Assembly: GCF_963664075.1 (NCBI RefSeq)
Contig: NZ_OY760916.1
Span: forward strand, 4,622,710 to 4,686,709
DNA from: an uncultured Desulfobulbus sp.
GTDB lineage: Bacteria; Desulfobacterota; Desulfobulbia; Desulfobulbales; Desulfobulbaceae
Length of the DNA stretch: 64,000 bases
Direction of reading: 5' to 3'
Shown piece after piece: positions 1-30,278 of the stretch; within the stretch, counting starts at the first letter, position 1; every line of letters begins with the position of its first letter. Position numbers and translations under genes: made by a program. The notes beneath the pieces are model-generated. The model was not told the origin of the DNA, searched no databases, and saw nothing but the letters and a program-made list of their open reading frames with translations.

Positions 1-587
1 CCCAGTTTTTCAAGCAGATAGTGATCCCGGTACCGCTCAACGAGGTTGAAGGCGGGCGGACGGCTTTCAACCAGATCTGCCTGGGTCGCGGGGCGCTGGC
101 GCTGCACCACTGGTGTATCGGGAGTGACCGGATAGATCCCTTGCGGAAGGGGGTTTTGGTGCTCCATACCCTTTTCAAGCATGGCGATGAGTTCGCTGAA
201 GGACTTCTTGCCGAGTCCACAGACAATGTAATCAACCTCTTTGCGGTTGAAAAAATTGGGATCATTACTGGCGTGGATGCCACCGACAACAATGATTGCA
301 TCTGAGCTGGCGCGGACAGTTGCGGCAATCTGAACCACCGTGTTTGCCTCACAGGTTACCCCCGTGATACCGACAACATCCGGAGTATATTCTGTGAGTG
401 CAGCCTGCAGTCCAGCCGGTTCTGCCTTGAGGTCGAGCAAGTGGACTGAGTGTTCCAGCAAGTTGCCTGCAAGTTCCTCGAGCCCAAGTGGTTCCCCTCG
501 AAAAATTTGTTTGATCGAGGTGATACCATACCGTTCTTCGGGAATGCTGCGGCCACAGTTGGGCGGGTTGATTAAGAGTATATTCAT
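1..587 (-). CDS. B12-binding radical SAM protein, N-terminal part (runs off the window)
   Basis: An open frame starts at ATG 587 and runs through position 1 without a stop, giving about 195 visible residues. The N-terminus reads MNILLINPP, followed by alternating beta/alpha segments (VVGITGVTCEAN, IIVVGGIHAS, VDYIVCGLG) typical of the cobalamin-binding Rossmann domain that precedes the radical SAM barrel in this family. The CxxxCxxC cluster motif would lie beyond the window edge, so the radical SAM half is inferred from the family, not seen. It is the last visible gene of the leftward arm, 37 bp after the stop of the SPASM radical SAM gene, and is probably co-transcribed with it. Expected role: B12-dependent radical modification, often methylation or C-C bond chemistry, of a lipid or polyketide intermediate. 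Confidence 0.75.
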   Translation of the reverse strand, partial: MNILLINPPNCGRSIPEERYGITSIKQIFRGEPLGLEELAGNLLEHSVHLLDLKAEPAGLQAALTEYTPDVVGITGVTCEANTVVQIAATVRASSDAIIVVGGIHASNDPNFFNRKEVDYIVCGLGKKSFSELIAMLEKGMEHQNPLPQGIYPVTPDTPVVQRQRPATQADLVESRPPAFNLVERYRDHYLLEKL

Positions 588-624
588 GCAGGTGGTCAGG
601 TGTAGTCAATGCGCTGGAGTTTCT

Positions 625-1683
625 TCACATATTCGTTATGGGAGACTGCGCGCAGGCCGTTTCCAGATTTTTCCAGCAGGTAGGATCCGAGGCCAGGTAG
701 TCGCCGGTCAACTGGTAGGCAGCACCACGGCAACCATAGCACTCTTCACTTTTTTCACAGGTTCCACAGGGACCCTTAATCGTCATCCGATAATTTTTCA
801 AGTTTTGCACAATTTCACTCTGCTTCAGAATCTCGGCAAGTGGCTGTTGGCGAACATTGCCAAGGGCTATGGTCACCCCGACACAGGGCATCACATCGCC
901 TTGGGCAGTGACAACGCAGGAGACCTGGTGTCGCATACAACGATTACCCACCAGCGGTGGCTGTGGCTCCCAGTCCCGACCGTAGTGCTCCCGATCAAGA
1001 GCTGAGAGGTGCCTGAAAAGATCGTGCAGTTCCTGGGGACTCACCTCAAGCCAGTTGTTTTTCAAGGCATTGGCCTGAGGAGTGAGCACTTCAAAGTACG
1101 GTTCGATCTTCTGCTGACGTAGCCATTGCCACAACTCGACCAACTCTCCCAGGTTCGGCTGACAGATAACCGTGCTGGCGGCGAGAAACAGCTCTTTAGA
1201 GGGGTAGCCCACGCGTTGCAGGCGTTGTATTGCCTGTTCGATGATGGCAAAGGCCCCTTTTTTTCCTGCCAAGTGGTCCTGGATAGAGGCATCCCGGGAA
1301 TTCATCTTCACCACGACCCGCACCCGTTCTTCAGCCAAGACCTGTGCAAGCTCATCCGTGATGCCGCTGCCGTTGGTGAAAAGTTCAATCTCCAAATGCA
1401 GCGAGCCGAGGAAGCGAACCATTTCGATGAGATGTGGATAAATCGAAGGCTCTCCTCCCAGGATGATGATTTTACGAGCCCCCAGAGCCTGAGCCTGCAG
1501 AATAATATCTTTGATCTCCTGGCGTGACATCTCCCCTGCAAGCGAGGGCTGCTCTTCCACATAGCAGTATTTGCAGCGGAAATTGCATTTTCGACTGAAT
1601 TCTATCTCCATGGACAGGAGTCGGTCGGCAGCGGCAGCGGTCCGTATTTCTTCCTCGGTGAATTCCAGGTTATAGAGCTGCAT
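625..1683 (-). CDS. radical SAM/SPASM-type protein
   Basis: 352 residues. The 4Fe-4S site for S-adenosylmethionine cleavage is CNFRCKYC at about residues 33-40, followed by a glycine-rich GGEP motif (about 76) that contacts SAM. The C-terminus has a Cys-rich segment (CGTCEKSEECYGCRGAAY, then a further Cys after DYLASDPT), the pattern of a SPASM or twitch domain binding auxiliary Fe-S clusters. SPASM enzymes usually modify peptides or small molecules oxidatively. Here the neighbours are ketosynthases, ACPs and acyltransferases, so a lipid-linked substrate is more likely; that is inference. It lies 2 bp after the stop of the upstream B12-radical SAM gene, in the same leftward operon. Confidence 0.85.
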   Translation of the reverse strand: MQLYNLEFTEEEIRTAAAADRLLSMEIEFSRKCNFRCKYCYVEEQPSLAGEMSRQEIKDIILQAQALGARKIIILGGEPSIYPHLIEMVRFLGSLHLEIELFTNGSGITDELAQVLAEERVRVVVKMNSRDASIQDHLAGKKGAFAIIEQAIQRLQRVGYPSKELFLAASTVICQPNLGELVELWQWLRQQKIEPYFEVLTPQANALKNNWLEVSPQELHDLFRHLSALDREHYGRDWEPQPPLVGNRCMRHQVSCVVTAQGDVMPCVGVTIALGNVRQQPLAEILKQSEIVQNLKNYRMTIKGPCGTCEKSEECYGCRGAAYQLTGDYLASDPTCWKNLETACAQSPITNM

Positions 1684-1685
1684 AG

Positions 1686-3176
1686 TTAATATCCTTCAAG
1701 ATCCGTGAACGTATTGATTCTCTCCCAGCGTTGGACTTCCCGTTGGTAGCGTCCCTCCCAACCCCCCTTGCGCATGATCCGCCAGAAGTGCAATTTGAGA
1801 AATGGCTTAAAGGCAAAGCGCCAGATCGAGGTCCAGAGCCGCCCCTGTTTACGGGCCGGATCCGAAGGATTCCACCAGCCGATAACCTGCTGTCGTTGCA
1901 GCCAGAACTGGTATTGGAGGGCCTCCGAACTCAGGTATCTGGTACGGACATTGGCCCAGAGACCGCTGTATTTTTTGTAGTTGCTCTGATTGTCGATCAG
2001 CCCCTGTTCCAGGAGTTGCTGCCGCATGCCTGTCTTCGGGTAGGGGGTGAGAATCTGGCAGTAGGAGGCATCGGCACCGAGTTCGACAAAAAACTCATAA
2101 TTTTCCCGTATGGAGTCCTCGTCGTCCTCGGGGAAACCAAAAATTAAGCCGCCAATGACCATCAACCCATATTTATGACAATTTTCAATCGCCTGCTTCG
2201 ATGCCGCGACAATATCCCCCTTGCCGGCTGCACTGAGATTTTTCTTTGAGCCGTTTTCTATTCCCAGAAACACAGAGCGGAAGCCTGCCTGGGCCATCTT
2301 GGCAACCATGGGTTCGTTGGTGGCCATGGAAATGCAGTCTGCCTGGACCACCAGGTTGAGTCCCGTATAGTTGCGGGCGATGATGGCCTCACAGAGTTCC
2401 ATGACCCGGGCCGGATTGAGCACGATGTTATCGTCGGTGATGAAGACCCAACGCGTTTTGCGCTTGAAGTAAATATCGTCCAAATCCGCGAGAACCCGAC
2501 TGATGGGATAGGTCCGAAAGGTGCGCCCGTACATATGCTTCATGCTGCAAAAGTTACAGGAGCGGGTACAGCCTCGCGAGGTCTCAAGGAGCTCGATTTT
2601 GGAATAAAGGATGTGGTAGCCCCAGGTCAGACGACGTTCATCACGAATGGGTAAGCGCAGTGTGCTCAGCTCGAGATTCTCCCCCCTTGGGTTGTGCACA
2701 AAGCTGCCATCCTCTTTGTGTGAGAGGGAGGGAATTGCTGCGAGCTGGTCCCCTCCAGCCAGAGCGTTGACCAGGCGGCGGCAGCACTCTTCACCTTCTC
2801 CGCGGATGATAAAATCAATCCACTGGGCCTCTGACGCGCTGGCAATTTCTTCAGCCATCAGGGTAGCATGATATCCGCCCAGGGCTATTTTGGCGGTCGG
2901 GCGTATCTCTTTGAGGAGATGAGCAATTTTTATAGAGGTATCGTACTGCCAGGCCATGGCCGAAAGTCCAATGAGATCGGGCTGTATGCGATTCACGACC
3001 TTGGTCAGGTATTTTTTGATTGCATGACGCTTACGGATCAGATCAATCAGAAAAACTTCATGTTCAGGATCGATATTTCCGCCTACACAGGCTATGCCGT
3101 GATTGGGCATATGGACCGCCATCTCGTGGATGATAATGGGCACCACGTCGGGCATGGAGATAAGAAGAACCTTCAT
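1686..3176 (-). CDS. B12-binding domain radical SAM protein
   Basis: 496 residues. The N-terminal ~170 residues form a B12-binding Rossmann-like domain (MKVLLISMPDVV start, IGLSAMAW, IALGGYHATLMAEEIA, FIIRGEGEE). The radical SAM motif follows in ETSRGCTRSCNFCSMK, with CTRSCNFC as the CxxxCxxC site, and a later GIENGSKKNL segment is typical of the barrel. No DxHxxG base-off cobalamin motif is obvious. ATG 3176 overlaps the stop of the PlsC-like gene by 4 bp, which supports translational coupling. The family (Elp3/MiaB-like core with B12 domain) includes methylases and ring-forming enzymes; the substrate here is presumed to be an acyl intermediate of the locus. Confidence 0.85.
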   Translation of the reverse strand: MKVLLISMPDVVPIIIHEMAVHMPNHGIACVGGNIDPEHEVFLIDLIRKRHAIKKYLTKVVNRIQPDLIGLSAMAWQYDTSIKIAHLLKEIRPTAKIALGGYHATLMAEEIASASEAQWIDFIIRGEGEECCRRLVNALAGGDQLAAIPSLSHKEDGSFVHNPRGENLELSTLRLPIRDERRLTWGYHILYSKIELLETSRGCTRSCNFCSMKHMYGRTFRTYPISRVLADLDDIYFKRKTRWVFITDDNIVLNPARVMELCEAIIARNYTGLNLVVQADCISMATNEPMVAKMAQAGFRSVFLGIENGSKKNLSAAGKGDIVAASKQAIENCHKYGLMVIGGLIFGFPEDDEDSIRENYEFFVELGADASYCQILTPYPKTGMRQQLLEQGLIDNQSNYKKYSGLWANVRTRYLSSEALQYQFWLQRQQVIGWWNPSDPARKQGRLWTSIWRFAFKPFLKLHFWRIMRKGGWEGRYQREVQRWERINTFTDLEGY

Positions 3177-3991
3177 TGTACGCTCTCGGAAGAGGAGGAA
3201 TGAGTGGAAGAAGGGTGGGAGAGATGTTCAGCAGCTTGAGCCACGCCATCTTCCATGGCTTGGCGAATACGCTTGCCTAGATCAGGCAGGCTGTCTTGCA
3301 AGTCTTCAACTGGAATGGTTGCAACCAGCTGGAGTTGAATGAGGTTTTTTTTACTGGCGGCAAAGCGAAAGACGCCCGGACGGAAGAGTCGTTCCGTATT
3401 TGTGACGACGAGGACATGCAGGGGGGCGTGCAATTGACGGGCAATCTTCAGTGCACCCGGGTGCAGTGGCTTGATTTGTCCGTCTCGACTTCTCGTACCT
3501 TCGGGAAAGACAAAGAGATTTCCTCCTGCTGCAAGGTAGGCAGGCATGGTCTCCATTCGAGAGAGCAGCAGAGGGGCAAACCGACCGTTTGCGGTGGCGG
3601 GCAGGTACCCGGCGGTTCGAATGACCCGACCAAAGATGGGCAGAGTAAAAAAAACAGATTTGACAGTGGTGATCGAGCGTTCAAGGTGGGCGATCAGCAG
3701 CAGCGGGTCCAGGTAGGAGCGGTGGTTGCAAACTATGACCGACCCGCGAATGGTCGCTATGCGGTCATCGATGGTCCATTGTTGTTGGGGAGCGATGGTC
3801 TGGAGGAGTCGGAAAAACCCCCGGTAGAACAAACGATTGTATCGTTGAAATGCCGCCTCTTTATTTGCAGAAAAAAGTCCGCTGACGAGATAGCGAGGAG
3901 CAAACAGCAGCAAAAATCCCAGGGTGAAATAACACCAGCAGGTTAAGGTGACAGCGAGGTCGAAGACAGTCTCCAGACTCCAAGGCCGCAC
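3173..3991 (-). CDS. PlsC-like 1-acylglycerol-3-phosphate acyltransferase
   Basis: 272 residues starting at GTG 3991. It carries the LPLAT signature NHRSYLDP (H-x4-D catalytic dyad) at about residue 93 and FPEGTRSRDG at about 188, plus an N-terminal hydrophobic segment (about 11-35) that would anchor it to the inner membrane. The family transfers an acyl group to lysophosphatidic acid or a related hydroxyl acceptor. Next to a dedicated ketosynthase and ACP, it probably moves the specialised acyl chain onto a glycerol or other head group. It lies 2 bp downstream of the ketosynthase and overlaps the next radical SAM gene by 4 bp. Confidence 0.85.
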   Translation of the reverse strand: MRPWSLETVFDLAVTLTCWCYFTLGFLLLFAPRYLVSGLFSANKEAAFQRYNRLFYRGFFRLLQTIAPQQQWTIDDRIATIRGSVIVCNHRSYLDPLLLIAHLERSITTVKSVFFTLPIFGRVIRTAGYLPATANGRFAPLLLSRMETMPAYLAAGGNLFVFPEGTRSRDGQIKPLHPGALKIARQLHAPLHVLVVTNTERLFRPGVFRFAASKKNLIQLQLVATIPVEDLQDSLPDLGKRIRQAMEDGVAQAAEHLSHPSSTHSSSSESVQ

Positions 3992-3993: not shown

Positions 3994-5238
3994 TTAGTGG
4001 ACCTCGAGACCGTTTCGCACCAGCAGGCAGGTGTTGACTCCGCCAAAAGCGAAATTTTGAATTGAGGCAATGTGGGTCGTGGCCTCAATAACCTCTGGGG
4101 TATAGTTGAGCTGGGCGCAGCGGGGATCCACCTCGTCCAGATTCAGGGTAGGGGCGAGAAATCCTTCGGCCATCATATAGAGGGTCATGATCAGCTCCAT
4201 GGCACCACAGGTCCCCATGGTATGCCCCGTGTAACTCTTCAGCCCGGTCACATGGGGGTGCGGCCCATAGATTGCTTCAATTGCCTGCGATTCAATGATA
4301 TCTCCCATCTTGGTAGCTGTGGCGTGGGCGCTGATATAGTCAACCGCCTCTGCTTCGATGGCGGCATCGTTCAGGGCGAGGCGCAGGGTGGTGGTGATTC
4401 CTTGCAGGTTGGGCAGAATGAGGTCGCCCCCGTTGTTATTGCAGGCAAAGCCAATGACCTCGCCCAGGATGGTCGCTCCTCGTTTTTTGGCAGATTCATA
4501 CTCTTCAAGCAGGACTGCTGCCCCGCCTTCTCCCACCACCAGGCCATCTCGTTTTTTGTCAAAGGGACGGGGGGTAGATGAGGGAGAGTCATTATAGCCA
4601 ACCGAGCAGGCAAGGAGGTTATCGAAGACCGCCACCGTGGTTGTATCGTATTCGTCAGCACCGCCGCAGAGCATAGCATCCTGCATGCCGTACTTGATCA
4701 TTTCGTAGCCGTAGCCAATGGCCTGACTGCTGGTGGTGCAGGCAGTGGAAGAGGCGATGACGCGGCCAGTGATTCCAAACATGCGGGTGATGTTCACCGC
4801 GGTGGTGTGCACCATGGAGCGGAGATAATCAACGGCGCCAATGGAAGAAAATTCGGTGTCCAGGTTCTGAAAGAAGGTCTTGTAGATTTCCCGTTGAACC
4901 GTTGGACTCCCGTGGGTAGAGCCAAAGGCAACGCCTAACCGGCCAGATTCAATAAATTCTTTGGAAAGCCCCGAAGCGCTCAGTACATCCTTGGCAACCT
5001 GGCAGGCGTAGTAGGCTACCGGCCCCATGGTTTTACGCTGGGAGCGGTTGAACTCGTAAGGGATGGGGTAATCAACTGTGCCAAAGACACGGGAATGGAT
5101 ATGACCGCTTAAAAGGCCATCATCGCGCAGGGGCTTGACGCCGGAGATGCCGTGGCGCAGACTGTTGACTATGGCTTCCTGGCCATAGCCGATGGGGGTG
5201 ATGGCGGAACAGGCAGTAATAACGACGCGACGGTTCAT
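3994..5238 (-). CDS. beta-ketoacyl-ACP synthase (FabF-like)
   Basis: I chose ATG 5238 (MNRRVVITA, 414 residues) over an upstream TTG at 5247. The thiolase-fold catalytic triad is complete: Cys in STACTTSS, His in SAHATATKMGD and His in SYTGHTMGTCG, with the glycine-rich C-terminal FAFGGVN motif. It condenses an ACP-bound acyl starter with malonyl-ACP. It follows the ACP gene by 17 bp and precedes the PlsC gene, forming an ACP-KS-acyltransferase unit within the leftward arm. It is the only ketosynthase in that arm; four more KS-type domains lie in the rightward arm. Confidence 0.93.
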   Translation of the reverse strand: MNRRVVITACSAITPIGYGQEAIVNSLRHGISGVKPLRDDGLLSGHIHSRVFGTVDYPIPYEFNRSQRKTMGPVAYYACQVAKDVLSASGLSKEFIESGRLGVAFGSTHGSPTVQREIYKTFFQNLDTEFSSIGAVDYLRSMVHTTAVNITRMFGITGRVIASSTACTTSSQAIGYGYEMIKYGMQDAMLCGGADEYDTTTVAVFDNLLACSVGYNDSPSSTPRPFDKKRDGLVVGEGGAAVLLEEYESAKKRGATILGEVIGFACNNNGGDLILPNLQGITTTLRLALNDAAIEAEAVDYISAHATATKMGDIIESQAIEAIYGPHPHVTGLKSYTGHTMGTCGAMELIMTLYMMAEGFLAPTLNLDEVDPRCAQLNYTPEVIEATTHIASIQNFAFGGVNTCLLVRNGLEVH

Positions 5239-5255
5239 GGAAAACAACGCAGCAC

Positions 5256-5513
5256 CTACTGGGTGCGCCCCTGTTGTATCCTCTCCAGATAGTCAAGGAT
5301 ATCGTTGATTGTTCTGATTTCCATCGCTTTTTCTTTTTCTTCACGGGTGAGGGAAAAACCGAGGATACGTTCTATCTTGCCAAGCAGTTCAATGGCATCG
5401 ATACTATCAAAACCGTGGTCGTCACGAAGATTGTCATCCAGGCCTGGTTGCTGAAATTCAAAGTCCTGGATAAGGATTGTGAGGATCTGTTCCTGCAGTA
5501 CATCTCTAGTCAT
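5256..5513 (-). CDS. acyl carrier protein
   Basis: Read from ATG 5513 (MTRDVLQEQ) this is 85 residues, a normal ACP length. A longer frame opens at 5603, but the added 30 residues do not look like ACP sequence. The phosphopantetheine attachment site is the Ser in HGFDSIDAIEL (about residue 37), followed by an acidic helix III and LLGKIERIL. It would carry the growing acyl chain for the adjacent ketosynthase. It is one of three ACPs in the locus. The 281 bp upstream (5514-5794) contain no gene I can support and could hold an internal promoter. Confidence 0.9.
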   Translation of the reverse strand: MTRDVLQEQILTILIQDFEFQQPGLDDNLRDDHGFDSIDAIELLGKIERILGFSLTREEKEKAMEIRTINDILDYLERIQQGRTQ

Positions 5514-5794
5514 GGTTCTTTTGTTGAAAGCGATGCTTGATGACCTCGAAAAAGCGTGAAATTCCTCAATTGGATACACCAGAAAGGGAGTATCGAGGGT
5601 CAACAGGTCGTTCTAAAGTTGAGTAAAGGAGCTGCAATTATGCGGGCTATGCGAATTATCTGAAAAAAAATAAGATACTACTCCGAATTTAGCCAAAAAG
5701 AAAAGAAAATTCTCCTTGACGTTCCCCCCTTTGAGAGAAGCACAAGTGAGCCGGAGGGTGGCCGCAAAACGATGAGTCTGACGAGAATCTCAGC

Positions 5795-6682
5795 TTAAGA
5801 AAATTCGTCGGGGGCGTGGAGAAAGCGCTCGAAATGATACCACTCACAGGGATGGGCCAGCATGGCTGCCTCAAGGAGATGGGCATACTGTTGGGCCGCC
5901 TCGGCAATGACCCTGCCTCGCTCTTCCCGACTCGTACTTTTGACCCAAATGGGAGCGGAAAAAGTGAAATGATAGCGGTTGCGACCGGTGCGAAAGGCAA
6001 AAAAGATGATGATGGGGGCGCCGGAGACCAGGGCAAAGACAAAAGGGGCCTCTGCCACATAGGCCCTCTGCCCCAGTACAACCACCGGTATTTGTCGTTG
6101 ATCTTCCCGCCAGCTCACATCGCCTGTCATGGAGACGAAGCCCCCCTCCCGCAGAATGCGCAATCCTTCGACCGCGGTAAAGGGATCCCCTGTTCCCTGA
6201 TCGACACCGATGATGGAGACCCCCGCCTGCAGTAGCTCCTGTTTTTGCCTTCGTTCCACGCCTTCTTTTTCTTTGATCCCCATGTACAGCAGCAGCGGTG
6301 TTTTGTGACTCTGGCGCATCAGCATTCTGGCCGCCATCTCCCAGTTCCCCAAATGGGACATCAACAGTACGGCGCCTCCCTGACCGCTGCGGGCCTCCAG
6401 GAATTCTGCCCCACTTGCGGTGTAGGTCGGTGCGCTTCCACTGTTGTTTAAAAAACGGTCAAAATGAATGGTGGTAAAATTCTGGTATTGGCGGAAGGTA
6501 CACCAGAGATGAAACCAACGGCTTCGCTGTGGAAAAACAAGCGCATACAACCGTCGACTTTCTTGCACCCTGGGGGAGAAGAGAAAGTAGCCTACGGCAA
6601 TGAGGCGCGCCACGCCAGTGAAAAACCAGGAACCAAGCAGCGAGGATAGCCGTACCAGAAAAGAATAAAAATCGATACGCAT
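5795..6682 (-). CDS. LpxL/HtrB-type lysophospholipid acyltransferase
   Basis: 295 residues with an N-terminal membrane segment (about 12-36). The catalytic motif is SHLGNWEMA (H-x4-E) at about residue 109, as in lipid A late acyltransferases and in the acyltransferases of aryl-polyene clusters. A conserved GDVSWRED segment follows. It probably uses an acyl-ACP donor at the inner membrane to acylate a lipid or glycan head group. Its ATG overlaps the stop of the GT2 glycosyltransferase by one base (TAATG), so the glycosylation and acylation steps are likely co-translated. Confidence 0.85.
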   Translation of the reverse strand: MRIDFYSFLVRLSSLLGSWFFTGVARLIAVGYFLFSPRVQESRRLYALVFPQRSRWFHLWCTFRQYQNFTTIHFDRFLNNSGSAPTYTASGAEFLEARSGQGGAVLLMSHLGNWEMAARMLMRQSHKTPLLLYMGIKEKEGVERRQKQELLQAGVSIIGVDQGTGDPFTAVEGLRILREGGFVSMTGDVSWREDQRQIPVVVLGQRAYVAEAPFVFALVSGAPIIIFFAFRTGRNRYHFTFSAPIWVKSTSREERGRVIAEAAQQYAHLLEAAMLAHPCEWYHFERFLHAPDEFS

Positions 6683-7380
6683 TATCTGCGGTCCAAACCA
6701 AAGATGCGGCTGCAGATCAACCTGGAGAAGGTCGCTGAGTTACGCAGAAAATCGCGCCAGGGACGAAAGTGACTGACGCGCACCCCTTTGGGCTGATAAA
6801 TAACGGAAACGGGGACTTCAATCGTTGCAATGCCGCGTCGTTGTGCCCGGACCAGCACCTCCACCTCGAACTGGTAACGCCTGGCTTGCACTCCAAGCTC
6901 GAGGGTTTCGGGAAGGGGATAGAGGCGGAATCCTGATTGCGAATCGGCTATCCAGGGGCCACCGGAAACCCAGACCCAAAAGTTGGAAAAACCACGACCA
7001 AAGCGACTGGTCCAGGGAACATGCCCACCATCCATCCCCTGGCGATTGCCTACGACAATGACGCGTGCTTTCTTTTGGGTGCAAGCAAGCAGGGGCCAGG
7101 CGTCCGCCGGATCATGCTGCCCATCTGCATCCAGTGTGAGGGCGTAGTCGCAGTGGTGGGACGCCTCGGTAAAACCGCTGAGCAGAGCGGCGCCTTTTCC
7201 CTGGTTATGGCTATGGTGGAGAACCGTGATATCTGTATGTTGCTGCAGGACTTCGCTGGTCGTGTCGGTGGACCCATCGTTGACCACAATAATCGGTAAG
7301 CCCAGAGAGCGGGCCGAGGCGATCACATCATTAATTTGAGGGCCGTGGTTATAGACTGGAATGACGATAGCGGCATGCAT
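6682..7380 (-). CDS. glycosyltransferase family 2
   Basis: Read from ATG 7380 (MHAAIVIPVYNHG, 232 residues); the longer frame begins with TTG at 7398. Motifs typical of GT2, dolichol-phosphate-mannose-synthase-like enzymes are visible: VIPVYNHG, VVNDGSTD and the metal-binding TLDADGQHDP. There are no obvious membrane helices. Aryl-polyene clusters encode a similar GT2 enzyme thought to act on the head group or lipid anchor of the product. The start lies 1 bp after the stop of the fatty-acid-kinase fusion. Confidence 0.87.
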   Translation of the reverse strand: MHAAIVIPVYNHGPQINDVIASARSLGLPIIVVNDGSTDTTSEVLQQHTDITVLHHSHNQGKGAALLSGFTEASHHCDYALTLDADGQHDPADAWPLLACTQKKARVIVVGNRQGMDGGHVPWTSRFGRGFSNFWVWVSGGPWIADSQSGFRLYPLPETLELGVQARRYQFEVEVLVRAQRRGIATIEVPVSVIYQPKGVRVSHFRPWRDFLRNSATFSRLICSRIFGLDRR

Positions 7381-7381
7381 G

Positions 7382-18900: not shown

Positions 18901-19167
18901 ATGAATACTACTCTTGATCAAACCATCCTTCGTATCGCCGAAATCATCATCAACGAATTGAAATTGGAAGATGTAACCCCGGAAACCTTTGACCCCGATC
19001 TTGATCTGGTTGATGAGGTGGGCATCGACAGCATGGACCTGGCAACCATTGCCTTGGTGATTCGCGATGAATTCGGTGTGCGTATCGATGAGGATGACTA
19101 CCCCAAACTGACCACCTTGCGGATTATCGGCGAGTACATTGCCGGAAAACTCCAGGGCGAGGAATAA
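18901..19167 (+). CDS. acyl carrier protein
   Basis: 88 residues. The phosphopantetheine Ser is in VGIDSMDLATIAL, with an unusually acidic N-terminal helix region (DPDLDLVDE) before it. It differs clearly from the ACP at 14637, so the locus uses distinct carriers, perhaps for separate stages. The ATG of the following radical SAM gene comes immediately after the stop codon, and a FabZ-like gene lies just upstream, so this carrier probably presents the substrate to the adjacent paired radical SAM enzymes. Confidence 0.9.
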   Translation: MNTTLDQTILRIAEIIINELKLEDVTPETFDPDLDLVDEVGIDSMDLATIALVIRDEFGVRIDEDDYPKLTTLRIIGEYIAGKLQGEE

Positions 19168-22546: not shown

Positions 22547-23812
22547 ATGAAGGCACCGCAGAACAGAAAAGTTGTCGTTCTTGGTTATGGGGCCGCTTCC
22601 GCCCTGGGTAACACCTTTGCTTCCACCTGGAAGGGGGCCGTGGCCGGGAAGGCTGGTTTCCGGGTGCTAACTCGTTGCGAGGTGGAAACACGGAGTCGGG
22701 TGGTCGGCGAGATACCGGATTGGGATCCAAGTACGCTCCCCTATGTCAGCAGAAAGGATGCCTCGCTCTGGAACGCAGATTTTGTTTTCCTCACCATGGA
22801 GATTTGCCGGCAGGCGCTGGAAGATGCTGGCCTGGTGATTGACGAGCAGGTCGCACCGCGCACCGCCTGTCTGATGGGCTCGGCGCTCAATGGTTCAGAT
22901 GCCTACCGGATCGCCATGGATAACTATACCCGCCTGGGACCGACCAAGGTCAGTCCCTATCTGCTGCCCAATCTCTGCGCGAATCTTCCGGCCGGTAAGG
23001 CCGGCATGCTGCTTGGATTCACCGGGCCGATTTTTTCTCCCCAGGGGGCCTGCGCCTCGGGTAACCACGCCATTGGTATCGGGGCCCGCATGATTCGAGA
23101 CGGAGATTGCGACTTTGCCCTGGCCGGAGGGGTAGATACTTGCCTCATCCCTGAGATTATTCTCGGCTTTTCCAATATGTTGGCCACCATCAAGGTTGGG
23201 CCTAAAGACCGCTCCTTTGAAGATCCAACCCAGGCCTCCCGCCCTTTTAGTATCGACCGCAAAGGCTTTGTCCTTGCTGAGGGGGCTGGCGCCCTGGTAC
23301 TGGCAGCTGAAGAGGTGGCCCGAGCCCATGGTCTGATCCCCAGAGCTGAAATTGCCGGAATCGGCTGGAACTCGGATGCCCACCATTTTACTCGACCCAA
23401 TCAAGAGACGGTGACCCGGGCCATGCAGGATGCTCTGGAGGATGCCGAAATTACCGCCCGTGATATTGGGGCGATCAATGCCCATGGCACCTCGACTCCC
23501 ACCGGAGATACCACCGAGGCTCAATGTCTGCGGACAGTCTTTGGCAAGCAGCTGCCCAATATTCCTATTTCAGCTAATAAATCACAGGTCGGTCACAGCC
23601 TGGGTGCTTCTGCCGCCATTGAAGCAGCGCTGGGCATTGAGGCCATGCGTCAGGGGCTGGTCTTACCGACGGTCAATCATCTGCCGGATCCAGCTCTTGC
23701 CGATCTGGATGTCGTGCCCAATCACAGCCGCAAACATGCCCACGAGTTTTTTCTGTCGAACTCCTTCGGCTTCGGGGGCACCAACTGCTGTATAGTTTTC
23801 AGAGGTCAGTAA
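22547..23812 (+). CDS. beta-ketoacyl-ACP synthase (FabF-like), paralogue of the preceding gene
   Basis: 421 residues. Cys in SPQGACASGNHAIG, His in NAHGTSTPTGD and Lys/His in ANKSQVGHSLGASA are all present, with SNSFGFGGTNCC at the C-terminus. Both copies keep their active-site Cys, so neither is a chain-length factor. The stop codon overlaps the thioesterase start by one base (TAATG). With the KS/CLF fusion and the leftward-arm enzyme, the locus has four active ketosynthases, which implies several condensing specificities. Confidence 0.92.
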   Translation: MKAPQNRKVVVLGYGAASALGNTFASTWKGAVAGKAGFRVLTRCEVETRSRVVGEIPDWDPSTLPYVSRKDASLWNADFVFLTMEICRQALEDAGLVIDEQVAPRTACLMGSALNGSDAYRIAMDNYTRLGPTKVSPYLLPNLCANLPAGKAGMLLGFTGPIFSPQGACASGNHAIGIGARMIRDGDCDFALAGGVDTCLIPEIILGFSNMLATIKVGPKDRSFEDPTQASRPFSIDRKGFVLAEGAGALVLAAEEVARAHGLIPRAEIAGIGWNSDAHHFTRPNQETVTRAMQDALEDAEITARDIGAINAHGTSTPTGDTTEAQCLRTVFGKQLPNIPISANKSQVGHSLGASAAIEAALGIEAMRQGLVLPTVNHLPDPALADLDVVPNHSRKHAHEFFLSNSFGFGGTNCCIVFRGQ

Positions 23813-24288
23813 TGCGCCCTAAACCTTTTGTCCCCGAGCCCCATGAGCGTCCATCCTACGTGCGTGACACCAAAACCGGTCTGGTCTGGCATCGCTGCGA
23901 GCTGCGAACCTTATACGCAGATACAGATCGTTCTCAGGTGGTCTATCATGCCAACTATCTGCGGTATTTTGAATTCGGTCGGGCCTCATTGATGCGCGAG
24001 GCTCAGTACCCGTATAAAGATATTGAAGAGAGTGGCTACATCTACCCCATCATAAAAACGGAGCTCAATTATCATTCGCCGCTCTTTTATGATGATCTGA
24101 TGTATATCCACACCCGCCTCACCCGACTGGAGCTCGTCAAAGTTCAGTTTGATTATCTCATCACCAAGGCTGATGACGGCGAGATCTGCTGTACCGGGAT
24201 GACCCGGCACTGCGCAGTGAATGCCAACCATATTCCTGTGGAGATTGACGAGAAGACCATCGCCCTCTGGAATCAGTTCCCCAGCTGA
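23812..24288 (+). CDS. 4HBT/YbgC-type acyl thioesterase
   Basis: 158 residues of the hotdog thioesterase family. The signature LYADTDRSQVVYHANYLRYF contains the catalytic Asp, as in YbgC and 4-hydroxybenzoyl-CoA thioesterase; EFGRASLMRE and YHSPLFYDDL follow the family pattern. It should release a product from ACP or CoA by hydrolysis. Aryl-polyene clusters carry a similar thioesterase. One-base stop/start overlaps with both the upstream ketosynthase and the downstream dehydratase show co-translation. Confidence 0.87.
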   Translation: MRPKPFVPEPHERPSYVRDTKTGLVWHRCELRTLYADTDRSQVVYHANYLRYFEFGRASLMREAQYPYKDIEESGYIYPIIKTELNYHSPLFYDDLMYIHTRLTRLELVKVQFDYLITKADDGEICCTGMTRHCAVNANHIPVEIDEKTIALWNQFPS

Positions 24289-25130
24289 TGACTGCCACCC
24301 AGACAGAGCATAGGCTCTCCATTTTTCCCTGGATGAGCGATCACTGCTTTGGCGGTCGTACGGTCCTGGCCGCGGTGGAGGCTATGCAGCTCCTGGCAAA
24401 CTGTGTGCAGGCGGCAGATCCCCAGATGGAGGTCCGGACAATGGATGCTGCCCGTTTTGCCAAACTGCTGGTGATCCCGCCCTCTGCGAACGCGATGGAA
24501 GTCGTTGTCGAGCTGGAAACTTCCGAGAAGCAAGGAATTCGAGCTCGTCTGCTCAGCCGGACCCAGGGCAAAGTCATGACTCGTCTCGTCAGCCATTGCG
24601 AATTAGGTTTTCTCCCTCAAGCGCCTTGCCATCCAGAGAAAGCACTCTGGAGAGAGACTGCCAATGCCCCGGCCACGATGAGTGTGCCAGCCTCCAGAAT
24701 CTACCAGGAGCTGGTTCCCTTTGGCCCCAGCTACCGCACCCTACAGGACCGGCTTTATATTTCTGGAGACAGGGCCTGGGGAAGCCTGCTGGCCTTTGAT
24801 CCGGGAGACTCGAGCGCCAAACCGTTGGGGGCGCCCTTTCCACTGGATGGGGCCATGCACGCCGCCTGTGTACACGGTCAGGGGTTGGTCGATTTTGTCC
24901 CTTTTCCAGTGGGCTTTGCCGCGCGACAGATCGTTACACCAACACGGGCGGGGGAACTCTATCAAACCCAGGTACAGCTGCAGCGTTTGGCCGCAGACGA
25001 ACTTATCTATGATCTCGTTATTTGTGACCAGAAGGGGGGAATTCGGGAATGGGTGCAGGCATTGCGCATGCGGGATGTGAGTCAGGGGCGGATTAGGCCA
25101 CCGGCCTGGATTAAGGGCCAGAAGCGATAG
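24288..25130 (+). CDS. polyketide-synthase-type dehydratase, double hotdog
   Basis: 280 residues. The first hotdog has MSDHCFGGRTVLAAVEAM, where His (about residue 19) matches the catalytic His of PKS dehydratases. The second has FPLDGAMHAACVHGQ, where Asp matches the catalytic Asp. YQELVPFGPSYRTLQ at the start of the second fold is also characteristic. It is a stand-alone version of a domain usually embedded in modular PKSs or PUFA synthases. It is the third dehydratase-type protein in the locus and the last gene before a short inverted gene. Confidence 0.83.
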   Translation: MTATQTEHRLSIFPWMSDHCFGGRTVLAAVEAMQLLANCVQAADPQMEVRTMDAARFAKLLVIPPSANAMEVVVELETSEKQGIRARLLSRTQGKVMTRLVSHCELGFLPQAPCHPEKALWRETANAPATMSVPASRIYQELVPFGPSYRTLQDRLYISGDRAWGSLLAFDPGDSSAKPLGAPFPLDGAMHAACVHGQGLVDFVPFPVGFAARQIVTPTRAGELYQTQVQLQRLAADELIYDLVICDQKGGIREWVQALRMRDVSQGRIRPPAWIKGQKR

Positions 25131-25640: not shown

Positions 25641-26375
25641 ATGGGTGTGGTCCAAAACAGGATGAGCCAGGGCGACGGCTGGGATTTTTTTGACGCTATC
25701 TGTTGTATTACTCTGGAGAGCCGGCCAGACCGCATGCAGGCCGCTAAAGAGCAGTTTGCTTTGGTCGGCCTGGAGGAGCGGGTGGAGTTCGTTGTGGTCA
25801 AACGCGACGATGCAAACCCCGAACGCGGCATCTACACCTCCCATCAGCTGTGCCTCAGACGAGCACTCGCGGTGGGGGCTCGCCACATTCTCATCTTTGA
25901 AGACGACGTTTTTTTTCGAAAGTTCGATCGTCAGCGACTGCAGGAAGCGTGTCAATTTCTCCAACAGAGACACTGGGATGGTTTTGCCCTCGGTTGTCTC
26001 ACCTCATACAGTCAGCCGACCAGTGAAACAGGGGTGGTTCGTATTGGCTATCGCTGTCTGACCCATGGGTATGCACTCAATCGCTCCTTTGCTGAACGCA
26101 TTGTGGAATGCTCCTGGCACGGCGTGCCCATCGACGGTCTGTTTCATTCCATGAAAGGAGAGTTTTTCGCCCTCTATCCGATGTGTGCCTTTCAGGGGCA
26201 GGCTGCAAGCGACAACAAGACTGTCTGGATTGACCGATTGCGTACCCTCTTCGGTGGCCTGGCCCGTATTCAACGTGGTAACGAGTTCTACTGTAATCAT
26301 AAGGGGCTCATTTTTGGGGGCCACGTCGTTGCAGCTGCGGCTCTCATCGCTCTCTCTCTTTTTTTGTGTTCATGA
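25641..26375 (+). CDS. glycosyltransferase family 25-like protein
   Basis: 244 residues. CITLESRPDRMQAAKEQF resembles the N-terminal motif of GT25 LPS-type galactosyltransferases, and LIFEDDVFF provides the acidic metal-binding motif. HGYALNRSF corresponds to the conserved block downstream. A single hydrophobic helix at the C-terminus (VVAAAALIALSLFL) would fix it to the membrane, which is unusual for soluble GT25 enzymes. It probably adds a sugar to the lipid product. Its stop overlaps the MMPL exporter start as ATGA. Confidence 0.75.
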   Translation: MGVVQNRMSQGDGWDFFDAICCITLESRPDRMQAAKEQFALVGLEERVEFVVVKRDDANPERGIYTSHQLCLRRALAVGARHILIFEDDVFFRKFDRQRLQEACQFLQQRHWDGFALGCLTSYSQPTSETGVVRIGYRCLTHGYALNRSFAERIVECSWHGVPIDGLFHSMKGEFFALYPMCAFQGQAASDNKTVWIDRLRTLFGGLARIQRGNEFYCNHKGLIFGGHVVAAAALIALSLFLCS

Positions 26376-29300
26376 AATCCTCATCAGTCAACTACCCTGC
26401 GCTTCTCCTTGTTGTCCTGGCGATCTCTCTCTCTGCCTACCTGGGGCTGACACGGTTGCATATCGATACCGATATTGTCAAAACGCTGCCTGCCCACGAA
26501 CAGGTTATTGGTGATGCCCTGGAAATTTTCCAAAACCATCCCATCCACGATCAAGTGGCTGTGGATCTAGCCGTTGACCGTAAGGCCCCCGATGTCTTGG
26601 TTGCATCCGCGAAAATGCTTGAAGAAAAAATGCAATCCAGCGGGCTCTTTGCTGAGGTCGGAGGAGGGGAGACCAGCGCCTTGCTGCCGGAAATCGCCCA
26701 GCATGCAGCCCGGTCGCTGCTGTTGCTTTTTTCTCAAGAGGTACTCAGTGAAAGTATTGGGCCCCGTCTGACGAAAACTGATATTGAGCAACGCTTACAG
26801 GAGCTCATGGAGAAGATGTCGGGTTTAGACGGCATTGGGCAGGCGGCGTTTCTGTCCCTGGATCCCCTGGGGTTTAAGGATCAGATTCTTGCCCAGCTCC
26901 TTTACCTGGCTCCATCCCAGGAAGCGAGCATCTATAAAGGGTATCTGTTGTCACAGGATGGGCAACATCTCCTGATCACGGCAAGGCCTGCAACGGCCGG
27001 CACCGATGGTGCGGCAGCTCGTCGACTGGCCACATTTTTTGTAGAGGCAGAGCGAGAGCTTGCCCAGAGTGGTACTGCTGCAGGGATGCAACTGAAGCTG
27101 ACTCCAGCGGGGGCCTTTCGAGCCGCGCTTGATAACGAGTCCATCATTCGCCACGATGTGCAACTGGCCCTCGGGCTGACCACGGTGGGCATAGCCCTGT
27201 TATTGCTGGTTGCCTTTCCCCGGCCTTTGATCGGGCTGCTCTCCCTGTTACCAGCAGTTGCAGGGACTGCCATGGCCCTTTTCTTGTATTCGCTGTTGCA
27301 TGATTCGATCTCGATCATGGTTCTGGGATTTTCCGGCGCCTTGATTTCCATGATGGACGATCACAGCATTACCTACCTGCTCTTTCTCGATCGCCCCCAT
27401 GCAACCCGTGGCAGCGAGGCAGCGCGCGAGGTCCAGTCGGTTGGTGGCACCATGGCCCTCTTGACGACTATCGGCGCCTTTCTGGCCATCAGCCTGAGCG
27501 ATTTTCCCGTCTTTCGCGAGCTGGGGCAATTTACCGCCCTTGGTTTTATCTCCACCTATTTTTTCATCCATGTCATCTTCCCCCGCATCTTTCCCCATAT
27601 GCCTGCGGGAGGGAAACGTGTACTGCCTCTGCACTGGCTGGCTGAGCGTCTCTTCAATACAGGGAAAATCGGAGCTGTTTTGGCTCTGGGCCTTGCCTGT
27701 GTCCTGTTCTTTTTCGCTAAACCCGAGTTTCATATCAGCCTCAGTGCAATGAATACGGTCAGCGCCCAGACCCAGGTCGATGATCAGATGTTTGCGCAGG
27801 TTTGGGGAAACCCGGGTTCCAAGATATATCTGATGACCAGCGCCGACTCGCTTGCCGAGCTGCAGAAAAACAATGACCAGCTCCTGGCTCAGTTGGAGCA
27901 TGACCACCAGGCTGGGCGGGTTGGAGAGGTCTTTGTCTCTTCCCTGATCTTTCCCGGGCCGGAACGCAGCCGGGAGAATTTTGCTGCCTGGCGGAATTTC
28001 TGGTCGGAAACACGGGTCCAGCAGGTGGAAGATACCTTGATTGCGGAAGGGCAACGTCTGGGGTTAACCCGCGACGCCTTTGCACCCTTTTTTGCCCAGC
28101 TAGAAACGACGATTCAGCCTGCAACACCCGTACTTGCGAGTCGGTATGACAAACTCCTGGGGATAACCACCCGGGAAGATGGCCAGATCATCCAGTTCAC
28201 AGCCCTGAGCCCCGGGGCATCCTATGATCCCGCAGCTTTTCTCAAACGCTATGGCCAGGAGGGAAAGGTCTTTGATGGGAATTATTTTTCAGATCGCCTT
28301 GGAGCTACGCTCTTTTCCACCTTTACGAGCTTGCTGCTGATTATAGCGGCCATGGTAAGTTTGCTGCTCTACCTCCAGTTGCTCAACTGGCGGCTGAGCT
28401 GTATTGCTCTGTCGCCTCTGGTCTTTGCCTTTATCTGTACCCTGGGCACCCTGAAATTGCTCGGGCATCCCCTTGATATCCCGGCGTTGATGCTTTCAGT
28501 CGTCATTCTTGGCATGGGCGTGGATTACACCATCTATACGGTCTGTGGGTGTCAGTGGTACGGGACGGTCGATCATCCAGGACATGTCCTGGTCCGCAGT
28601 GCGATCCTTATGGCGGCAGCTTCAACCTTCATTGGCTTTGGTGTGTTGTGCCTGGCCCAGCACAGCACGCTGAAAAGTATTGGCATCACCTCGCTGCTCG
28701 GCATTGGCTACTCCCTGCTTGGCACCTTTGTGTTGCTGCCTCCGCTGTTGCGCAGGTATTTTGATCCCAACCGCAACCAGATTCTTTCGACTGCTCCACT
28801 CACGGAGCGGATAGTGCACCGGTATCGTCTGGTGGAGGCCTATCCTCGAATGTTTGCCCGCTTTAAGCTGAAACTTGATCCTTTATTTCATGAGTTACCC
28901 CAGTGGCTGGACGGACGAAGTGAAGGTAAAACCATCCTGGATATCGGCTGTGGGTATGGTGTTCCGGCCTGCTGGTGCTTGGAGAACTATCCTGCAAGTA
29001 GGGTGATCGGTGTAGATCCTGATGGTCGGCGAATACATGTGGCGGCTCGTGCTACAGGGGAGCGGGGAACCATGCTGGTAGGTGCTGCGCCGGAGCTCCC
29101 TGATATACCTGGACCGGTCGATGTGATTTTACTGCTCGATATGTCGCATTATCTTGATGACCAGCAGTTTGCAGCAACCTGCGCCCGTTGCTGGGAGTTA
29201 CTGGCTCCAGGTGGAATCGTCTTGATTCGTTTCGTCACTCGACCTGAGGGGAGGCTGTCGGCCACCTGGTATCTTGAGGAGTGGCGGGTGCGCCTCGCAG

Positions 29301-29452
29301 GAGGCCAAACCTGGTATCGGACCCCAGAAACGCTGGAGAGGATACTTGCAGAACAAGGGTTTAGCGGGTTGGAACTGAAAGCGGCAGTGAGTAGCGAGCT
29401 CTTTTGGATCAGCGGGCAGAAGGACGCAGTGGCGGGCAATGAGCCAAGGTAA
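26372..29452 (+). CDS. MMPL-type RND exporter fused to a SAM-dependent methyltransferase
   Basis: 1026 residues from ATG 26372 (ATGA overlap with the GT25 stop; a GTG lies 6 bp upstream). Residues 1 to about 800 form an RND/MMPL transporter: an N-terminal helix, a periplasmic loop (about 30-265), a helix bundle (about 268-445) with SMMDDHSITYLL, a second loop, and a second bundle (about 640-800) with ILGMGVDYTIYT. From about residue 835 a class I methyltransferase follows, with ILDIGCGYG as the SAM-binding loop and GVDPDGRR as motif II. In aryl-polyene clusters exporter and methyltransferase are separate genes. The fused enzyme would sit on the cytoplasmic side, methylating substrate as it is exported. 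Confidence 0.85.
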   Translation: MKSSSVNYPALLLVVLAISLSAYLGLTRLHIDTDIVKTLPAHEQVIGDALEIFQNHPIHDQVAVDLAVDRKAPDVLVASAKMLEEKMQSSGLFAEVGGGETSALLPEIAQHAARSLLLLFSQEVLSESIGPRLTKTDIEQRLQELMEKMSGLDGIGQAAFLSLDPLGFKDQILAQLLYLAPSQEASIYKGYLLSQDGQHLLITARPATAGTDGAAARRLATFFVEAERELAQSGTAAGMQLKLTPAGAFRAALDNESIIRHDVQLALGLTTVGIALLLLVAFPRPLIGLLSLLPAVAGTAMALFLYSLLHDSISIMVLGFSGALISMMDDHSITYLLFLDRPHATRGSEAAREVQSVGGTMALLTTIGAFLAISLSDFPVFRELGQFTALGFISTYFFIHVIFPRIFPHMPAGGKRVLPLHWLAERLFNTGKIGAVLALGLACVLFFFAKPEFHISLSAMNTVSAQTQVDDQMFAQVWGNPGSKIYLMTSADSLAELQKNNDQLLAQLEHDHQAGRVGEVFVSSLIFPGPERSRENFAAWRNFWSETRVQQVEDTLIAEGQRLGLTRDAFAPFFAQLETTIQPATPVLASRYDKLLGITTREDGQIIQFTALSPGASYDPAAFLKRYGQEGKVFDGNYFSDRLGATLFSTFTSLLLIIAAMVSLLLYLQLLNWRLSCIALSPLVFAFICTLGTLKLLGHPLDIPALMLSVVILGMGVDYTIYTVCGCQWYGTVDHPGHVLVRSAILMAAASTFIGFGVLCLAQHSTLKSIGITSLLGIGYSLLGTFVLLPPLLRRYFDPNRNQILSTAPLTERIVHRYRLVEAYPRMFARFKLKLDPLFHELPQWLDGRSEGKTILDIGCGYGVPACWCLENYPASRVIGVDPDGRRIHVAARATGERGTMLVGAAPELPDIPGPVDVILLLDMSHYLDDQQFAATCARCWELLAPGGIVLIRFVTRPEGRLSATWYLEEWRVRLAGGQTWYRTPETLERILAEQGFSGLELKAAVSSELFWISGQKDAVAGNEPR

Positions 29453-30278
29453 AGAACGGCACCGGTTCAGTCAGGCAGAAAAGACAGGACTGGCTGCTTT
29501 TTGTGCAGCGATCCTGGTGGGCTGTGTTGGTGGCCCGCAGATGGCCAGCATCCCCTTGGCTCTTTTTCTCTTGATTTGCCTGACAGCGCCGTTTTTTCCC
29601 CGATTCTCGTTTTTTCTACCTGTGATCTGGAAAGGGAGGCCCGGAAGCAAGGGGATAGCCCTAACCTTTGACGATGGCCCTTTTCCAGCTTCTACCCCGA
29701 TTATACTGGAGCTCTTGGCCCGTTATCGTCTGCCAGCCACCTTTTTTGTGGTGGGAGAACGTGCCGCCACCCATCCTGAGCTCATTGCCGAGATTCTAAG
29801 CCAGGGGCATACCATTGGTAACCACTCGCTTACCCATGATAATCTGCTCATGGTGCGTGACTGTGCAACCTTGAGCAGAGATATCGGGCAGACCCAGGAG
29901 ATTCTTGGCCAGCTGGGAGTTCGGCCCCGTTTTTTCAGACCGCCCATCGGTATTATCAGTCCTCGCCTTCAAGCCGCTCTTACCACTCATAATCTTCAGG
30001 CCATGACCTTTAGCAGTCGAATCTTTGATCATGGAAATCGTAAAATTGACAACTATGTTGCAAGGGTCTGCAAACAGGTCAAGCCAGGGGATATCCTTCT
30101 GCTGCACGATAATCCTCCACTGACAGAGGAACAGAGAGCATACTGGCAACAAGAGCTTGAACAGTTGTTTGCCCATTTTGCTCGGGAAAAGAGTGTGGTA
30201 GCCCTTGCAGAGCTTATCGGGCAGCCCGTGATGTACCATGAGCAGGAGGCTGATTTCATCGCGCCGCAGGCGAGATAA
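29439..30278 (+). CDS. polysaccharide deacetylase (NodB/CE4 family)
   Basis: 279 residues. Two hydrophobic segments (about 16-34 and 37-62) place it in the membrane. The NodB motifs are complete: LTFDDGP (catalytic and metal Asp), GNHSLTHDN (metal-binding His-x3-His), RPPIG and DILLLHD. It removes N-acetyl or other acyl groups from a sugar. As the last gene of the rightward arm it may trim the head-group sugar added by the glycosyltransferases. It overlaps the exporter gene by 14 bp. Confidence 0.85.
   Translation: MSQGKERHRFSQAEKTGLAAFCAAILVGCVGGPQMASIPLALFLLICLTAPFFPRFSFFLPVIWKGRPGSKGIALTFDDGPFPASTPIILELLARYRLPATFFVVGERAATHPELIAEILSQGHTIGNHSLTHDNLLMVRDCATLSRDIGQTQEILGQLGVRPRFFRPPIGIISPRLQAALTTHNLQAMTFSSRIFDHGNRKIDNYVARVCKQVKPGDILLLHDNPPLTEEQRAYWQQELEQLFAHFAREKSVVALAELIGQPVMYHEQEADFIAPQAR

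Follow-up and report, generated by a model that had tools for sequence, protein, structure and literature searches.

Gene content and organization of the locus

The region considered here is a window of 64,000 nucleotides, positions 4,622,710-4,686,709 of the 4.78 Mb single-contig genome of an uncultured Desulfobulbus sp. (NZ_OY760916.1), whose first 30,278 positions harbor a locus rich in radical S-adenosylmethionine (SAM) genes that probably specifies an outer-membrane polyene lipid. Profile scans of the translated open reading frames (ORFs) with Pfam and NCBIfam, on which the family calls at the locus are based, recovered seven radical SAM genes, of which four (A1, A3, A12 and B2) possess a B12 domain, four ketosynthase genes (A5, B1, B7 and B8) with five ketosynthase-type domains, two of these in B1, and three acyl carrier proteins (ACPs). 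They further recovered one ketoreductase, three dehydratase-type hotdog proteins (the ApeP-like A16, the ApeI-like B3 and the double-hotdog B10), one thioesterase, one AMP-forming ligase, two acyltransferases, two glycosyltransferases, a LolA protein and an MMPL exporter with a fused methyltransferase domain. This inventory, proposed earlier in a first-pass annotation made from the sequence alone, is thus borne out, with the exception of a DUF3261-like export protein: its candidate A13 has no Pfam match at E<=0.001 or even at E<=10, and none in NCBIfam. To the earlier inventory can be added a DAK2-DegV fusion and a polysaccharide deacetylase. The genes form two divergent runs, with gaps of -34 to +30 bases in 21 of 27 cases, and most of the set is found again in the loci of relatives. 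They are as follows (L001 denotes DNA to the left of the window).

A1, 3..587, minus: B12-binding radical SAM, truncated at the window edge (complete at L001:15996-17297); HpnR/BchE are the nearest models, far under cut-off; adjoins a DarB-type ketosynthase outside the window
A2, 625..1683, minus: radical SAM/SPASM; equivalent to Kuste3343/DP1855 on the basis of location in the anammox cluster and of 43-46% identity with the gene there
A3, 1686..3176, minus: B12 radical SAM, BchE/HpnJ-like, under all cut-offs
A4, 3173..3991, minus: PlsC-type acyltransferase, ApeD-like role, by domain match
A5, 3994..5247, minus: ketosynthase, Cys-His-His present
A6, 5256..5603, minus: ACP, by domain match
A8, 5795..6682, minus: LpxL-type acyltransferase; A8 and A9 may represent a split ApeJ
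A9, 6682..7398, minus: glycosyltransferase family 2, by domain match
A10, 7382..9088, minus: fusion of DAK2, FakA middle and DegV domains, similar to a fused fatty acid kinase
A11, 9085..10446, minus: AMP-forming acyl ligase, ApeH/ArcT/FlxY role
A12, 10443..11711, minus: B12 radical SAM, 47-89% identity in relatives, 32% to a radical SAM protein of the Jettenia cluster
A13, 11719..12456, minus: lipoprotein-like protein, DUF3261 not confirmed
A14, 12537..13136, minus: LolA; scores 88.8 with the nearest NCBI model, LolA2_flexi (cut-off 125)
A15, 13133..14026, minus: FabG-type ketoreductase, true start probably internal
A16, 13881..14327, minus: ApeP-like dehydratase, 25.3 bits against the PF22817 cut-off of 27; 6qsr_B the only PDB match below E=0.1
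B0, 14625..14903, plus: ACP, by domain match
B1, 14900..17065, plus: ketosynthase fused to a chain-length-factor-like domain (ApeO+ApeC), the second domain without an invariant Cys
B2, 17032..18411, plus: B12 radical SAM, TIGR04072 (rSAM_ladder_B12), 378.6 bits against the curated cut-off of 360; Kuste3342/DP1853 counterpart
B3, 18546..18881, plus: ApeI-like dehydratase, PF22818, 33.0 against 28.5
B4, 18901..19167, plus: ACP, by domain match; first gene of a conserved block
B5, 19168..20235, plus: radical SAM, matching no characterised family; five further invariant Cys
B6, 20252..21250, plus: radical SAM, 28% identical to B5; six further invariant Cys
B7, 21257..22516, plus: ketosynthase, Cys-His-His
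B8, 22547..23812, plus: ketosynthase, Cys-His-His
B9, 23812..24288, plus: 4HBT/YbgC-type thioesterase, ApeK role, by domain match
B10, 24288..25130, plus: double-hotdog dehydratase of the polyketide synthase type, under cut-offs (25.0 against 27, 18.0 against 23.7), His19 and Asp187 invariant
B12, 25641..26375, plus: glycosyltransferase family 25, by domain match
B13, 26366..29452, plus: MMPL/RND exporter carrying a fused methyltransferase domain, ApeM and perhaps ApeB roles
B14, 29439..30278, plus: polysaccharide deacetylase, of a type also found in the published extracts on the arc and flx clusters and as kuste3351

Within the plus-strand operon a small membrane-protein-like ORF on the opposite strand (25150-25539, minus) matches no family, and two long neighboring ORFs, 1030 and 1720 aa in length, follow downstream of the locus (36716-44992, plus).

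The genome has 47 matches to the radical SAM model PF04055, five of which (A1 included) fall inside the locus itself, a stretch of 31 kb, against 0.30 expected, a density with a Poisson P of ~2e-5 for a stretch that was picked after the fact. A12 and B5 are not counted among these 47; A12, B5 and B6 score under the Pfam cut-off, yet keep the CX3CX2C motif.

A predicted polyene assembly set of the aryl polyene type

The aryl-polyene layout that the first-pass annotation had proposed is recovered upon comparison with the ape genes of Escherichia coli, whose functions are given in Table 1 of PMC8253772: on the terms of that table, 15 of the 18 functions have a counterpart at the locus by domain class. 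ApeO and ApeC correspond to B1, ApeQ to A15, ApeI to B3, ApeP to A16, ApeE/F to B0/B4/A6, ApeH to A11, ApeD to A4, ApeJ to A8 and A9 together, ApeK to B9, ApeL to A14, ApeM and ApeB to B13, and ApeR to A5 (or B7/B8). No counterpart of the lipoprotein ApeA or of ApeG was recognised at the locus, and ApeN is matched at best by A13.

Two of these assignments are further supported by conserved residues and structural matches. The first domain of B1 possesses a Cys144/His272/His306 triad and its second domain lacks an invariant Cys across relatives, in the manner of the ketosynthase and chain-length-factor partners of the aryl polyene pathway; its fourth PDB match is 6qsp_A, from what we take to be ApeO:ApeC. 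The paired dehydratases ApeI and ApeP are likewise represented, B3 scoring over the PF22818 cut-off and A16 slightly under that of PF22817 but with 6qsr_B as its best PDB match (E=1.9e-5, the next match at E=0.1). The third match of B3 is 6qsr_A, and 6qsr is presumably the ApeI:ApeP complex. Across relatives A16 has a single invariant acidic residue, Glu64 (15 sequences), and B3 a single invariant His, His32 (19 sequences), as expected of a shared active site. LolA and RND export genes occur together with acyl- and glycosyl-anchoring genes, and the ligase A11 comes nearest to the NCBI model of 4-coumarate-CoA ligase, with 90.5 bits where the cut-off is 334.7.

In terms of domain classes, the locus shares with the ape clusters of E. 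coli CFT073 and Xenorhabdus doucetiae the ketosynthase with its chain-length factor, the ketoreductase, ApeI- and ApeP-like dehydratases, ACPs, ligase, acyltransferases and glycosyltransferase, thioesterase, LolA, RND exporter and methyltransferase domain. It differs from them in its seven radical SAM genes, its DAK2-DegV fusion, the block B4-B10, the fusion of ketosynthase and chain-length factor, and the separation of the ApeJ-like parts.

A dialkylresorcinol-type module beside the locus

The locus runs on to the left of the window, where L001 completes A1 and adds a Dar-type module spanning L001:9635-14866 (a PagL-like protein, DarG, DarH, an ABC ATPase, a permease, an ACP and DarB), flanked at L001:14856-17297 by the B12 radical SAM gene beside DarB. 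The ketosynthase III of this module belongs to the StlD/DarB family NF005293 (521.6 bits against a cut-off of 450), a second protein to the DarG family (91.6 against 70), and a BtrH-type protein scores 460.2 against 300 with the DarH model; ABC2 and BtrH_N domains are both encoded in the module. Also present are an ACP (L001:14519-14866), an ABC-2 permease and an ABC ATPase. The PagL-like gene is also found alone in one relative (G107) and in two other clusters.

Among the dar genes of Azoarcus, as described in extracts of PMC3949708, are darB, the aromatase darA, a BtrH-like darE, an ACP gene and the two genes of an ABC transporter (ATPase and permease), and the set upstream of the window comprises much of this gene set next to arc- and flx-like genes. 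As judged from the same extracts, A1 occupies beside DarB the place that DarA has in Azoarcus. DarB, A1 and the module genes adjoin the polyene locus in the window and in three relatives (G049, G062 and G045), that is in 4 of the 21 loci; in a fifth (G111) the module lies ~30 kb from the polyene locus in a stretch that ends inside the module. Each of the five loci in which DarB and A1 were both seen has them as neighbors, and in G045 an ACP and a phytoene-desaturase-like flavoprotein (under all cut-offs) lie between the permease and A1.

By domain class the locus thus has in common with the arcuflavin (arc and dar, Azoarcus BH72) and flexirubin (flx and dar, Chitinophaga pinensis) clusters a polyene set with polysaccharide deacetylase, LolA, glycosyltransferase, acyltransferases, exporter and ligase, as well as DarB, a BtrH-like protein, an ABC transporter and an ACP. 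A polysaccharide deacetylase is included in the flexirubin gene set in extracts of PMC3992019. The locus is distinguished from both by the presence of radical SAM enzymes, and DarA, an ammonia-lyase and a XanB2-type chorismatase were not recognised in it. The dialkylresorcinol genes outside the window point to flexirubin- or arcuflavin-type compounds as the predicted products.

The conserved B4-B10 block

The novelty of the locus is the block B4-B10 (18901-25130), with the order ACP, radical SAM, radical SAM, ketosynthase, ketosynthase, thioesterase, dehydratase. Searches with B5 recovered matches in 47 of 146 genomes of the window's order and in 22 of 297 of its phylum (one of the 22 being only a 32% relative), and those with B6 in 86 of 257 genomes of the order. 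Among the 20 relatives' loci compared, all selected for carrying B5, B6-B10 are present in 20 and B4 in 19, with a different gene order in G220. Identity to the window copy across relatives amounts to 69-91% for B6, 64-81% for B5 and only 31-56% for B10. Elsewhere in these loci, A12 (median identity 80%) and B2 are each present in 15 of the 20 and the DAK2-DegV fusion in 13; A2 was seen in five of the 20 stretches, and in four more of the 20 when flanks are included.

In all 21 sequences the CX3CX2C motif is kept together with the further cysteines of B5 and B6, including a CC and a CxxC near the C-terminus, which suggests a candidate auxiliary cluster. B7 and B8 retain Cys-His-His and B10 retains His19 and Asp187 across relatives; the ACP B4 has nothing but generic carrier-protein matches among the best 60 of its 116 PDB matches. 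A structure of B6, predicted from an alignment whose sole other member was B5, had a mean pLDDT (predicted local distance difference test score) of 51 and was too poor for use.

These observations bear on whether the locus might encode an ordinary aryl polyene or flexirubin, the radical SAM enzymes only replacing oxygen-dependent tailoring (methylation, aromatisation) in an anaerobe. The Ape/arc-like set with its Dar genes, the HpnR, BchE and HpnJ models nearest to A1 and A3, and the position of A1 beside DarB are all compatible with this, but it leaves unexplained the constancy of a block that brings two more intact ketosynthases and its own ACP, thioesterase and dehydratase, though the loci that display this constancy were chosen by B5. 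We regard this explanation as unlikely, if far from negligible.

B2 connects the locus to a wider set of clusters. Of 297 genomes from the phylum to which the window belongs, 73 match TIGR04072 at E<=1e-100 (63 over cut-off), and the cut-off is exceeded in 0 of 14 control genomes. Such matches (E<=1e-100) occur in 19 of 21 genomes with a strong B5 against 54 of 276 others (Fisher P 5e-11, not a strict probability because the genomes are related), and the best-scoring members (480-651 bits) sit in related clusters. In ten TIGR04072 contexts of 10-20 kb, taken from genomes without a B5 match, A12 was present in five (58-63%) and A2 in four (45-57%), with A5/A6, A8/A9, B0/B1, LolA, MMPL, the kuste3344-type ligase or the desaturase in varying sets; none contained B5 or B6. 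The window locus can therefore be regarded as a branch of a putative wider family of radical SAM polyene-type clusters, set apart by its B4-B10 block and DAK2-DegV fusion and by only seldom having a desaturase-like gene.

Relationship to the ladderane candidate clusters

Ladderane biosynthesis in anammox bacteria is the other context in which such gene sets have been discussed. According to extracts of Rattray et al. 2009 (PMC2649909), candidate clusters of Kuenenia show synteny with Desulfotalea psychrophila, with the named pairs Kuste3343/DP1855 and Kuste3342/DP1853 and phytoene-desaturase-like genes in both organisms; D. psychrophila is described there as having no ladderanes and as making C31:8 and C31:9 hydrocarbons. 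Javidpour et al. (PMC4790861, likewise in extract) list Kuenenia genes, whose expression in E. coli yielded no new fatty acids, and the enzymes building the ladder structure were stated in a passage of PMC9821293 to be not yet identified as of 2023.

The Kuenenia cluster was compared through its Jettenia and Brocadia equivalents and the published gene list. The genes of Brocadia sp. MAG_8 (L232) run in the order ligase, radical SAM, radical SAM, FabG, ACP, FabZ-like, methyltransferase, MMPL, amine oxidase/desaturase and glycosyltransferase, which corresponds to kuste3344 down to kuste3335 in the list excerpted from PMC4790861. Jettenia ecosi (L198 and L199) and Candidatus Brocadia carolinensis (L231) agree with this order, except that Jettenia shows no FabG between radical SAM and ACP; in the draft genome of the latter the ORFs for desaturase, MMPL protein and ligase are each broken up over more than one frame, whether by decay or by sequencing error. 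Of the adjacent radical SAM pair, the first member is the counterpart of A2 and the second is 35-37% identical to B2. In reverse searches the Jettenia A2-like protein recovered A2 in the window genome with 327 bits, the second-best place scoring 57, and its A12-like protein recovered A12 with 202 against 168, a narrow margin. These matches, together with the TIGR04072 score of B2, indicate that the link to a ladderane-candidate locus proposed in the first-pass annotation was right, if partial. An alternative pairing of B5/B6 with Kuste3343/3342 was refuted in favor of A2/B2: no full-length match to B5 was found in 10 of 10 anammox-lineage genomes, two of which contain a partial match of 30-32% over ~108 residues.

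On this basis the locus might be thought to specify a ladderane or other fused-ring lipid, the radical SAM enzymes cyclising a polyene. In addition to the A2/B2 pair, A12 has a further B12 radical SAM counterpart in the Jettenia cluster, and ketosynthase, ACP, family 2 glycosyltransferase, LpxL-, LolA- and MMPL-type proteins, deacetylase (in Jettenia) and FabG (in two Brocadia) are matched in clusters of the kuste3335-3352 type, to which D. psychrophila DP1853-1860 is related. However, TIGR04072 is over cut-off in just 3 of 36 anammox-lineage genomes (mostly draft metagenome-assembled genomes of unknown completeness), the complete genome of Brocadia pituitae being among the 33 without; A2-like genes adjoin it in all three loci. 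These genomes were found via a haem-protein query, some being classified only as Planctomycetota or Brocadiales. A hydroxylamine-oxidoreductase-like multihaem cytochrome is also encoded in the window's genome (G000:C1:2774018-2774464, L062), with 4qo5 as its best PDB match.

At E<=1e-30 some match to TIGR04072 is found in 35 of the 36, and (nearly) full-length matches near the cut-off (304-342 bits), counted in favor of a ladderane product, in 18: Jettenia, which also has an over-cut-off gene, and 17 of the 33 others (L205-L221, L233). These were considered as hidden copies of the cluster and rejected, no other locus gene being found within ~1.5 kb in 17 of 17 fetched loci or in one 20 kb context. 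Only Jettenia among six anammox genomes searched with a ketosynthase showed the extra ketosynthase pair. Two other candidate cluster types, identified by content as kuste3603-3608 (FabZ, two ketosynthases, amine oxidase, radical SAM) and kuste2802-2806 (radical SAM, two ketosynthases), match the window locus at the superfamily level only, not as orthologues; among the matches listed for them are ketosynthases at 28-43%, B12 radical SAM proteins at 21-31%, one FabG at 40% and one Scalindua B12 radical SAM at 43% to A3. No B5/B6, DAK2-DegV or DarB-type gene occurs in the anammox clusters compared. Conversely, no phytoene-desaturase-like flavoprotein was recognised in the window locus (weak relatives of 23-26% occur in 4 of 20 relatives' stretches), and A11 has no match to the kuste3335-3352-type cluster. 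Of 246 genomes in the phylum that includes Brocadia pituitae, four (L226, L227, L228, L229) contain a distant relative of B6 (~30-35% identity) next to a gene for another CX3CX2C protein (motif CYANCxYC). Apart from a weak match (28%) to a glycosyltransferase at a single one of these places, no other gene of the locus lies around them, so that they provide no extension of the cluster. A search with the methyltransferase domain fused to the MMPL protein B13 did not lead to the anammox methyltransferase structure.

Considering this rarity, the superfamily-level matches, the missing B5 and the reported lack of ladderanes in D. psychrophila, the 'ladderane-like enzymology' of the first-pass annotation is not supported as a sign of fused cyclobutanes, and a ladderane or similar product of the window locus appears very improbable. 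We therefore infer that the kuste3335-3352 type is a polyene-lipid cluster of some anammox bacteria rather than the ladderane pathway. Of the earlier expectation of an unusual outer-membrane lipid, a polyunsaturated lipid is left as the likeliest form, as indicated by the gene set.

D. psychrophila raises a further alternative, namely that the locus makes an anaerobic polyunsaturated acid feeding long-chain polyunsaturated hydrocarbons such as its C31:8 and C31:9 compounds. The related cluster in this producer, as excerpted from PMC2649909, speaks for it, but the exporter, LolA, glycosyltransferases and acyltransferases indicate a membrane-anchored lipid, and Ole genes were not recognised in the locus, the genome at large not having been searched for them. 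Such a role is quite improbable.

Proposed pathway and implications

Thus, the locus is best understood as a member of the superfamily that includes aryl polyenes, flexirubins and arcuflavin, which would have been adapted to anaerobic life and would give an outer-membrane polyene lipid, a reading to which we assign a probability of about 0.6. In the proposed pathway a starter acid would be activated by the ligase A11, loaded on an ACP and extended to a conjugated polyene by the ketosynthase/chain-length-factor fusion B1, the ketoreductase A15 and the two-part dehydratase A16:B3. A4, A8 and A9 would anchor the polyene, and B13 and LolA would carry the lipid to the outer membrane. The linked dialkylresorcinol module (DarB, DarG, DarH, the ABC transporter and ACP) probably supplies a resorcinol that DarH would join to the polyene, which in the window's genome is perhaps esterified to it. 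A1 may replace the aromatase DarA, conceivably as an anaerobic aromatase or methylase of the DarB product. The B4-B10 block would make or edit an extra acyl unit by radical chemistry; as a guess, B5 and B6 might form a working pair on acyl-ACP from this block, A3, A12 and B2 might be methylases or oxidative cyclases, and the DAK2-DegV protein a fatty acid kinase recycling acid freed by B9.

Several observations weigh against this reading. The comparison with the ape, arc and flx clusters is one of domain class against published tables, without alignment of proteins. Neither a tyrosine ammonia-lyase nor a chorismatase was matched among the scanned genes, so the starter may not be aromatic, and A16 and B10 fall slightly under their family cut-offs. 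DarB does not reach the narrower DarB model NF053539 (429.3 against 550), nor DarG the flexirubin DarG model (92.1 against 170), and hence both could be relatives of another kind, for instance StlD-type. Scanning of the ORFs at the Dar loci revealed no recognisable DarA, the whole genome not having been searched for it. Only 5 of the 21 loci are accompanied by the Dar module, which is a minimum given the uneven length of the stretches and the early ends of several contigs, and shorter stretches of 8 further genomes showed none.

More tentatively, and with less than even odds, B5 and B6 may be two new radical SAM families that act jointly on acyl-ACP from B4, B7, B8 and B10 and install a structure foreign to aryl polyenes and flexirubins, such as an anaerobic desaturation, a C-C cross-link or a ring. 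The result would be an undescribed class of outer-membrane lipid across the phylum, with the kuste3335-3352 type making a related polyene, not ladderanes. No description of the locus was found in the titles and opening lines of abstracts listed from the literature on aryl polyenes, ladderanes, flexirubins and Desulfotalea hydrocarbons, in which subscription journals are thinly covered.

The polyene-lipid reading ties the aryl polyene and flexirubin pathways to one ladderane-candidate cluster. If it is true, one of the four Kuenenia clusters proposed in 2009 would be a polyene-lipid cluster, narrowing the search for the true ladderane genes, and automatic 'ladderane' calls in Desulfobacterota, given as of unknown function in extracts of PMC9902471, would need re-reading. 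It would also imply an oxygen-free route to flexirubin-like lipids, and two uncharacterised radical SAM families, which could be tested in culturable anaerobes.

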